The notes under the pieces: generated by a model
Database searches by the model: none
Told to the model about the DNA's origin: nothing
Seen by the model: the letters and a program-made list of their open reading frames with translations, nothing else
In this document: piece by piece, positions 10,091-15,099 of the stretch
How the letters are laid out: every line of letters begins with the position of its first letter
Position numbering within the stretch: position 1 is the stretch's first letter
Position numbers and translations under genes: made by a program
From: Aurantimonas endophytica
GTDB lineage: Bacteria > Pseudomonadota > Alphaproteobacteria > Rhizobiales > Rhizobiaceae
Assembly (NCBI RefSeq): GCF_014196845.1
Contig: NZ_JACIEM010000006.1
Coordinates: 186,001 to 250,000, forward strand
DNA: 64,000 bases
Reading direction: 5' to 3'

Positions 10091-13012
<2,922 letters not shown>

Positions 13013-13704
13013 GCGCCGGTGGTATCGCGGGTCCGGGCGCAAGTCCATCGGCCGCTTGGGGACTTTCCGCAACCGTTCGGGCAAGATGGCTTCCACACCT
13101 TTGGCCGGGAAACGGCGACCGGCTTCTCGCCGCCGGGCGGAGGTTCGGGAGCGCAGGGTAGGGGCACGGCGCACGACGTCACGTCACCAGACCCCTTGCG
13201 TTGCGGCACTAGTCCGTGTTTGTTACCGTCGGTTAATAAATCTTCACGCCGTTGTGACGAACGCGCCCGGGCGCGGTCTTGATTTCCCTATGGGCGAGTC
13301 GCATCTTGTTGAGGACGGCATCATTGGTGCCGTGTTCGGCCAAAGCACGTCCCCCGCTCTGGGCCGAATTGAGAGCGATCCGGTCCTCTTCCCCCCTCTC
13401 CGGGACCGTCGCTCGCTGAAAGCAAGGGAGTCGTCGCGGTGTATCCCCCTCCAGGCCGCGGCGGCTCTCTTTGCTTGTGGGTTGCTTGATCTTTTGCTTC
13501 GATTGCCCGCGATGGCTATGGTCCCGAGACCCTGTTAGGCGCGTGTCCGCGCTGGCCCAGCGCGGCCAAATAACCGGCCGAATTCGTCGGCTGCCCTTGA
13601 TCCCCCGGCACCGGCTCCTCTAGGCATTGGCATCCGCTCGCCCCGCCGCTCGTCGCGCGTCGGCAGCCAGCCGCCACCCCGTCGCCTTTCCAGGGATCCG
13701 TGCC
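13013..13704. other. Long noncoding region between polA and an M20 peptidase gene
   Basis: About 690 bases separate these divergent genes. I find no convincing coding sequence. The AT-rich part near 13216-13250 (with TTAATAAAT) may carry promoters; it is followed by a 14-base perfect palindrome at 13262-13275 and then the hairpin array described in its own entry. After that come a short stem (GGTC/GACC, 13530-13541) and a GC stem with AGCGCGG near 13548-13566. The last ~130 bases before the peptidase show nothing notable. Confidence 0.6.
13317..13500 (+). ncRNA. Putative structured small RNA with three C-rich-loop hairpins
   Basis: Three hairpins follow each other with spacers of 4-5 bases. 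Hairpin 1: 13335-13341 pairs with 13362-13368, loop with CCCCC. Hairpin 2: 13373-13378 and 13381-13386 pair with 13403-13414, loop with CCCCCC and CUCUCC. Hairpin 3: 13420-13439 pairs with 13456-13476, about 20 bp with one bulge, loop UGUAUCCCCCUCCAGG. A short stem precedes them (13317-13331) and CTTTTGCTT follows at 13491. Hairpin 3 contains three G-U pairs (13427/13468, 13431/13464, 13434/13461) that would be A/C mismatches on the other strand, so the plus strand is the structured one. CU-rich loops able to pair with Shine-Dalgarno sequences are known from alphaproteobacterial small RNAs (the alpha-r14/suhB and cuckoo groups); membership here is inference. Promoter and exact ends are not fixed. 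Confidence 0.5.
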
Positions 13705-15099
13705 ATGCCCAAGCTCGACAGTGTCCTCGCCTGTCTCGACCTCAATCTCGACCGCTCGGTCGAGCGACTGAACGACCTCCTGCGGATTCCCTCCATCTCC
13801 ACCGACCCGGCCTATGCCGCCGATTGCCGGCGCGCGGCCGAATATCTCGCCGGCGACCTGTCGGCGATCGGCTTCGACGCCGCAGTGCGCGACACGCCGG
13901 GCCACCCGATGGTGGTCGCCCATCATGCCGGCCCGGAGGGCGCGCCGCACGTGCTCTTCTACGGCCACTATGACGTCCAGCCGGTCGACCCGGTCGCGCT
14001 CTGGGAAACCGACCCGTTCGAGCCGCGCATCGTGATCATGCCGGACGGCACGCGGCGGATCGTCGCCCGCGGCGCCGCCGACGACAAGGGCCAGCTGATG
14101 ACCTTCGTCGAGGCCTGCCGCGCCTTCAAGGCGGAGACCGGGGGACTGCCCTGCACGGTGACGATCTTCCTCGAGGGCGAGGAGGAATCGGGCTCGCCGT
14201 CGCTGCGTCCCTTCCTCGAGACCAACCGGGCGGAATTGACTGCCGACGTTGCCCTGGTCTGCGACACCAACATGTGGGACCGCCAGACCCCCGCGATCTC
14301 CACCGGCCTGCGCGGCATGGTCGGCGAGGAGGTGACGATCAAGGCCGCCAACCGCGACCTGCATTCGGGCTATTACGGCGGCGCGGCGCAGAACCCGGTG
14401 CGGGTGCTGGCGAAGATCCTTGCCGACATCCACGATGCCGATGGCCGGGTGACCATCCCGGGCTTTTACGAAGGCGTCGACGAGCTGCCGGACGCGGTCC
14501 GGGCCATCTGGGACGAGCTCGGCTTCTCAGAAGCGGAATTCCTCGGCGCGGTCGGCCTGTCGGTGCCGGCCGGCGAGAAGGACCGTTCGGTGCTGGAGCA
14601 GGTCTGGTCGCGCCCGACAGCTGAGTTCAACGGCATCGAAGGCGGCTATACCGGCGAGGGCTTCAAGACGGTGATCGCCGCCGAGGCACATGCCAAGATC
14701 TCCTTCCGCCTGGTCTCTCGGCAGGACCCCGAGCATATCCGCGCGGCCTTCCGCCAGTTCGTGACGGAGCGCCTGCCGGCCGACTGCACCGCCGAGTTCG
14801 AGGAGCACGGCGGCTCGCCGGCGATCCAGCTGCCCTTCGACTCACCCTGGCTCGGAGCTGCAAGGGCAGCGCTTTCGGACGAATGGCCGAAGCCGGCCGT
14901 AATGATCGCCATGGGAGGCTCGATCCCCGTCGTCGGCGAGTTCAAGGAGCTGCTCGGCACGGAATCGCTGCTGATCGGCTTCGGTCTCGGCGATGACGCG
15001 ATCCACTCGCCGAACGAGAAGTACGAGATGTCGTCGTTCCACAAGGGCCAGCGTTCCTGGGCGCGGGTGCTCGAGGCGCTGGGGAGCGGCGCGCGTTAA
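13705..15099 (+). CDS. M20 family dipeptidase/metallohydrolase
   Basis: This is a zinc peptidase of the M20 family, CNDP-like dipeptidase branch (464 aa), probably cytoplasmic and cleaving dipeptides. Metal-binding and catalytic motifs are visible: FYGHYDVQPVD (first His/Asp), RGAADDKGQLM (bridging Asp), EGEEESGSPS (general base Glu) and the late DDAIHSPNEKYEMSSFHKG (final His). The dimerisation/lid domain lies between, around GMVGEEVTIKAANRDLHSGYYGG. The ATG at 13705 is preceded by AGGGA. The stop codon lies inside a perfect CtrA-type box. Confidence 0.9.
   Translation: MPKLDSVLACLDLNLDRSVERLNDLLRIPSISTDPAYAADCRRAAEYLAGDLSAIGFDAAVRDTPGHPMVVAHHAGPEGAPHVLFYGHYDVQPVDPVALWETDPFEPRIVIMPDGTRRIVARGAADDKGQLMTFVEACRAFKAETGGLPCTVTIFLEGEEESGSPSLRPFLETNRAELTADVALVCDTNMWDRQTPAISTGLRGMVGEEVTIKAANRDLHSGYYGGAAQNPVRVLAKILADIHDADGRVTIPGFYEGVDELPDAVRAIWDELGFSEAEFLGAVGLSVPAGEKDRSVLEQVWSRPTAEFNGIEGGYTGEGFKTVIAAEAHAKISFRLVSRQDPEHIRAAFRQFVTERLPADCTAEFEEHGGSPAIQLPFDSPWLGAARAALSDEWPKPAVMIAMGGSIPVVGEFKELLGTESLLIGFGLGDDAIHSPNEKYEMSSFHKGQRSWARVLEALGSGAR

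Follow-up and report, generated by a model that had tools for sequence, protein, structure and literature searches.

The 692-base gap between the start of polA (13012) and that of the M20 peptidase gene (13705) raises the question of what structured element it carries and how such an element might act. The original prediction had placed three consecutive hairpins with runs of C in their loops into this gap. The window analyzed here is the whole stretch of 64,000 nucleotides, and positions refer to it unless stated otherwise.

The MFE fold of 13317-13500 (−80.3 kcal/mol) contains all three predicted hairpins, and the C runs of 5, 6, and 5 nucleotides at 13351-13355, 13391-13396, and 13445-13449 each lie inside a loop (Table 1). 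When the folding of this region was compared with that of shuffled sequences, the plus strand reached a z of −3.68 with 0 of 200 shuffles equally good, whereas the minus strand reached −0.14 with 79 of 200 equally good. Because the plus strand beats its shuffles and the minus strand does not, the earlier argument that the plus-strand RNA is the structured one holds. In the alignment of the 16 Aureimonas-group copies (defined below), U-G predominates at three pair positions of hairpin 3. In the window copy, the mean unpaired fraction of loops 1, 2, and 3 is 75%, 99%, and 94%, respectively, against 36% overall. Runs of at least five C are common in the 64-kb window (31 on the plus and 25 on the minus strand), and this is the sole place where three of them start within 130 bases on one strand; a search of the window for the three-loop pattern likewise returned this element as its single match. 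The RNA would start near 13314-13317 and end near 13476.

Table 1. Features of the polA-peptidase gap and its neighbours in the window.
Feature	Position	Strand	Evidence
polA, DNA polymerase I, divergent neighbour	10091..13012	-	NCBIfam PRK05755, 1167 bits
-35-like element CTTGAT	13278..13283	+	CTTGA, CTTGT or CATTGA anchor at most 60 nt upstream in 81/81 copies
-10-like element CATCTT, 18 nt past -35	13302..13307	+	conserved C, A, T
alpha-r7 (SmrC7-type) sRNA gene	13316..13479	+	Rfam ar7 13319-13473, 57.8 bits; model R1 13316-13479, 170.2 bits (R1 was built from 16 sequences, the window copy included)
weak 5' hairpin, variable domain, preceding the three	13317..13331	+	MFE and centroid fold
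hairpin 1, loop 1 GUCCCCCGC at 13349-13357	13334..13369	+	fold; helices 2 and 3, 97.9% and 100% of cells paired
hairpin 2, loop 2 CUUCCCCCCUCUCC at 13388-13401	13373..13414	+	fold; helix 4, 98.5% paired
hairpin 3, terminator-type stem, loop 3 UAUCCCCCUCC at 13442-13452	13420..13476	+	fold; helix 5, 96.5% paired
M20-type dipeptidase-like gene, downstream, outside the sRNA	13705..15099	+	NCBIfam PRK09104, 792.8 bits; PRK08201 dipeptidase, 442.8 bits

At its gathering thresholds, Rfam gave zero matches in the whole 64-kb window. With a permissive threshold applied to 13000-13750, the alpha-r7 model (ar7) matched the plus strand with an E-value of 2e-10, and the match covered model positions 1-145 of 145, i.e., the model from end to end. 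The score of the window copy is below the Rfam cut-off of 60 bits, while the copy in the same-genus genome G003, 95% identical over the matched part, scores 61.8 bits and lies above it. As one gene thus straddles the curators' threshold, membership rests on other criteria and on the reciprocal model described below. Whole-genome searching found only one ar7 match in the genome of the window. Among 200 relatives, ar7 was found in 100, in 75 of them above the cut-off, and all matching rows belonged to the window's own genome, its genus, or its family. All eight genomes of the genus match, only G003 above the cut-off, which means that the Rfam cut-off misses seven of the eight alpha-r7 copies in this genus. 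We conclude that the three hairpins are the Aureimonas ortholog of alpha-r7 (RF02342; SmrC7/Sra03/SmelC023 in S. meliloti), which settles their identity as a known sRNA that narrowly escapes Rfam in this genus. The alpha-r7 RNA itself, its transcript, its processed form, and its polA location are already known in S. meliloti; the new points are modest, namely the form that loop 3 and the terminator take in Aureimonas and the lack, in this group, of a promoter dyad.

A DNA search detected the element in 17 of 100 genomes, that of the window included. Fifteen of these copies, together with that of Aureimonas phyllosphaerae, were used to build a covariance model, R1. The sixteen sources, labelled here as the Aureimonas group, comprise the window, the seven genomes of its genus, a further seven from elsewhere in the family, and A. 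phyllosphaerae, which among the fetched records is also the closest named one by the adjacent peptidase (82% identity). The fold of the 16-copy alignment shows changes on both sides at 14 of 36 pairs. Applied to 81 other sources, R1 gave a match at E ≤ 1e-6 in 66, including one (L024) that is not independent as it lies on the same contig as a copy used for the model (L012), and it recovers the gene beside polA in other Rhizobiaceae as well as in Brucella and Mesorhizobium. For 23 of these sources, an Rfam search was made too: 12 had an ar7 match of 93-137 bits, in 12/12 at the place found by R1, and the remaining 11 had neither an ar7 match nor an R1 match at E ≤ 1e-6. Conversely, R1 found all 30 ar7 loci taken from the Rfam survey of relatives with at least 55 bits, several of these loci being contigs already covered by the search of the 81 sources. 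Eight R1 matches were weak (22.7-30.6 bits); the Rfam comparison covered the seven apart from L072, of which six fell on ar14 genes (25.8-30.6 bits) and one, at L086, had no Rfam match. The ar7 and ar14 families of C-loop RNAs are thus alike yet separable. Beyond the family, the 700 nt upstream of polA were scanned in 180-nt windows on either strand in 30 of 40 genomes from other families of the order, and none of these upstream regions had more than one hairpin loop with at least four C. The same scan counted three such loops in the window and at L022 and two at the ar7 loci L079 and L035. There is, hence, no sign of alpha-r7-like RNAs upstream of polA in those 30 genomes.

An alignment of 81 copies, 79 of them distinct, was fitted to R1 and thus leans towards the structure of that model. 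It has standard pairs in 95.6% of 2664 pair cells and changes on both sides at 33 of 36 pairs, among them all 17 pairs of helix 5 (hairpin 3). Double-change cells number 509, against 160.9 in shuffles and 40-67 with the partners slid. The lowest pairing among the five helices, 80.8% of cells, is that of the 5' hairpin (helix 1). At least five C are present in loop 1 in 80/81 copies, in loop 2 in 76/81, and in loop 3 in 47/81, the last comprising 16/16 of the Aureimonas group and 31/65 of the others; fewer than four C in a row occur in loop 3 of 20 of these 65. The original prediction had named missing conservation of stems or C-loops in relatives as what would speak against it, and in the 81 copies both are conserved. 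Constraint, as the alignment reveals it, acts on the promoter and on loops 1 and 2, to which the Aureimonas group adds loop 3.

The neighbourhood of the gene was assessed in two sets of loci. Among 80 loci fetched by the peptidase, polA was in view in 62, and 61 of these carried the sRNA (R1, E ≤ 1e-6), in every case divergent from polA and before the peptidase; where polA was not in view, the sRNA was present in 4 of 18. In the first set of 17 loci, with flanks of about 1.5 kb, 16 showed polA, always divergent from the sRNA, and the peptidase was in view in nine and out of view in eight that nonetheless have the sRNA. These co-occurrence counts across both sets indicate that the sRNA follows polA, not the peptidase. 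The sole locus with polA and peptidase and only a weak R1 match (25.8 bits, L086:3493-3639) has no Rfam match, and its gap holds a diverged or lost copy. In S. meliloti, the order is polA, smrC7, and SMc02851, with polA pointing away from the other two (PMC2573895, PMC2780559), and the SmelC023 family is described as adjoining polA save in one member (PMC3927594). In four Agrobacterium records (L064, L065, L068, and L070) the sRNA does adjoin polA, though the 2011 survey makes A. tumefaciens C58 an exception to the polA neighbourhood (PMC3927594). The passages on polA in PMC4414408 mention no sRNA there.

Upstream of the gene, three bases of the -10 region, C at 24, A at 25, and T at 28 as counted from the -35-like element, are 91-95% conserved in each of the two groups. 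At the 3' end, hairpin 3 is strong, but the longest T run in the last 40 nt is at most four in 14/16 Aureimonas-group copies versus 28/65 others; because of this poor U-tract, the 3' end of the window RNA is less certain. The consensus fold of the 16 copies leads the lower stem of hairpin 3 through a CUCUCUU stretch, and loop 3 keeps CCCCCUCC in all 16. Another difference lies before the promoter: a dyad TTAC-N6-GTAA stands upstream of the sRNA in 59 of the 65 copies outside the Aureimonas group (e.g., L026 and L041) and in 0/16 within it. It ends 10-12 nt before the -35 element in 41 copies, 20-22 nt before it in 15, and at other distances in three, and was found in 0/3536 background windows, each 160 nt long and drawn from these loci; the background is mostly coding and so a lenient control. 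The two distances are about one helix turn apart and would therefore suit a bound activator; the dyad might serve the sRNA, or polA instead.

A related site, GTTAC-N6-GTAATC, is located in the window's genome (G000, C6:257897-257913, L183), 182 nt ahead of a gene for an OmpR-type response regulator, and is identical in G003. We take this regulator to resemble ChvI; its NCBIfam matches were to response-regulator families of a general kind, and of the 25 listed none exceeded its cut-off. A regulator shared by the sRNA and the chvI-like gene is not supported, as in 30/30 relatives the 400 nt before the corresponding regulator gene lack the strict dyad, a one-mismatch form being present in 5/30. 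The ChvI sites quoted in PMC9731502 also differ from the dyad.

Taken together, the features of the Aureimonas group could mark a subtype in which the terminator hairpin has turned into a third strictly conserved targeting loop (CCCCCUCC), an extended stem replaces the free U-tract, and a factor that would bind the dyad in other Rhizobiaceae no longer controls, or never controlled, the gene. We put this forward tentatively and consider it rather doubtful. If true, the RNA of this group would be a re-wired, possibly Hfq-independent three-loop regulator.

As for its function, the explanation that we regard as best, and as probable, is that of a trans-acting alpha-r7 ortholog with its own promoter, whose C-rich loops would pair with G-rich or Shine-Dalgarno sites of mRNAs and hinder ribosomes. 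It builds on the homology, the covariation, the loops, the promoter-like elements, and the locus reported above. Transcription in Aureimonas would run rightward from a sigma-70-type promoter, away from polA, and yield an RNA of approximately 160 nt ending at hairpin 3. The three displayed loops would then pair with such sequences in several mRNAs, and the hindered ribosome binding would repress their translation. Most likely, judged by analogy, the loops would act on mRNAs as those of sX13 of Xanthomonas do, an sRNA which represses mRNAs with G-rich motifs near the start (PMC3771888). A study of Hfq-bound RNAs obtained no signal for SmrC7, a result that its authors interpreted as absence or low affinity (PMC2848018). 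We therefore favour a loop-driven repression of several mRNAs, perhaps with little need for Hfq. Our literature search, outside of which the family-naming survey by del Val and others lay, found no functional study of alpha-r7.

Pairing energies were calculated for two kinds of site. With a Shine-Dalgarno of the AAGGAGG type, loops 1-3 pair with −4.5, −6.3, and −8.8 kcal/mol and the 16S tail with −10.1, while for a GGGGAG site the loops reach −9.3 to −9.5 and the 16S tail −6.3 kcal/mol. As GGGGAG pairs more strongly with the loops than with the 16S tail, G-rich sites would be a better match for the loops than for the ribosome. A search for mRNA targets with the 13-base complement of loop 2, allowing one mismatch, gave 7, 5, 6, 8, and 16 hits in G000, G003, G005, G001, and G034, against 10, 7, 7, 4, and 27 for the reversed control in the same genomes, so that only G001 was above its control. 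Some of the hits (e.g., L135, L137, and L151) fall on the sRNA gene, read on its opposite strand. At 7 of 20 hit loci an ORF of at least 50 codons starts at most 18 nt past the site; no target is claimed from these. This negative search weighs against the favoured explanation, as do the score of the window copy below the Rfam cut-off, the stronger pairing of the 16S tail with AAGGAGG, the short C runs in loop 3 of 20 copies outside the group, the poor U-tract, and the leaning of the alignment towards R1.

Other explanations were weighed against the repression of mRNAs. An alpha-r7 RNA could instead mainly titrate a C-binding protein or sponge G-rich RNAs. Loops 1 and 2 are near-invariant while the stems vary, the target search gave no mRNA, and RNAs that titrate proteins, such as CsrB, can likewise be built on loop motifs that recur. 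Yet the three loops differ from each other, which makes different targets likelier than one protein, and sX13, with similar loops, represses mRNAs. We consider titration or sponging unlikely, and nothing found favours the sponge, which the original prediction had also envisaged, over direct pairing with mRNAs. Far less probable still is a role in cis, as a leader or attenuator of the peptidase gene downstream. The element does share the strand of that gene, whose start lies 225 nt further on in the window, and at 21/61 loci fewer than 400 nt separate the end of the sRNA from the peptidase. Across the 61 loci, however, this distance ranges from 74 to 3340 nt, the peptidase is out of view at 8 of the 17 loci of the first set, the sRNA accompanies polA (61/62) rather than the peptidase (4/18 without polA in view), and SmrC7 is reported as a separate transcript (PMC2780559).

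The family assignment of the original prediction, to the alpha-r14/suhB or cuckoo (CcsR) RNAs, had the C-rich loops in its favour, as well as the weak cross-matching of R1 and ar14 (the six R1 matches of 25.8-30.6 bits on ar14 genes). At the element, ar14 scores 15.7 bits with an E-value of 1.8, far from its cut-off of 58.8 and 42 bits behind ar7, and the ar14 genes of this genome lie elsewhere. CcsR1 is not among the six matches up to E 10 in 13000-13750, and the CCUCCUCCC loop of the cuckoo RNAs is absent from the sequence. We give this membership almost no credence. What stood of the proposal is a structured, conserved, non-coding plus-strand RNA with mostly unpaired loops that could pair with ribosome-binding sites; its family did not stand. 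Three neighbouring ar14 matches are present at C1:778299-778669 of the window's genome (62.6, 58.7, and 48.6 bits, one above the cut-off), and this trio represents the true relatives of what had been in mind.

Compared with known RNAs, the alpha-r7 ortholog described here resembles SmrC7 in sequence and structure from end to end, in loops 1 and 2, in the sigma-70-type promoter, in the locus divergent from polA, and in the single match in the window's genome. It differs in its score just below the Rfam cut-off, its poorer U-tract, the kept CCCCCUCC, and the lack of TTAC-N6-GTAA; moreover, the next gene is the peptidase in the window as opposed to a MarR-type gene in Rhizobiaceae (PMC3927594). 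The published description of the SmelC023 family gives a 5' domain that varies, two hairpins in the middle whose loops are highly conserved, and a terminator-like hairpin at the 3' end (PMC3927594). SmrC7 in S. meliloti measures 148-150 nt with a processed form of 106 nt, and its level rises approximately 13-fold in nodules (PMC2780559). Counted on the Sinorhizobium relative L079, the published processing site would fall in the C run of loop 1, depending on which G is taken as the start.

Alpha-r14 (NfeR1), alpha-r15 (AbcR), and CcsR1 share with the element anti-Shine-Dalgarno-like CU motifs in loops or unpaired regions, and the alphaproteobacterial setting (PMC7143759, PMC3927594), but have other loop motifs and loci, and neither ar15 nor CcsR1 is among the matches up to E 10. 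Three further candidates were set aside: GspR (SmelC775) is a different gene listed apart from SmelC023, AbcR1/2 adjoin SMc01226-lsrB instead (both PMC7143759), and PmaR has one C-rich loop and sits between two hypothetical genes (PMC6234868). Related literature includes PMC10659215 and PMC5928217.

There is also a likeness in design to sX13, an RNA encoded beside polA whose three stems bear C-rich apical loops and which does not need Hfq (PMC3771888). sX13 lies downstream of polA and is reported to lack sequence similarity to alpha-r7, so that the likeness is one of design and neighbourhood only; its authors describe alpha-r7 as alike in structure and not in sequence (PMC3771888). They raised the question of whether RNAs are encoded at other polA loci and whether these act similarly (PMC3771888), and the RNA described here offers a concrete case for that comparison.
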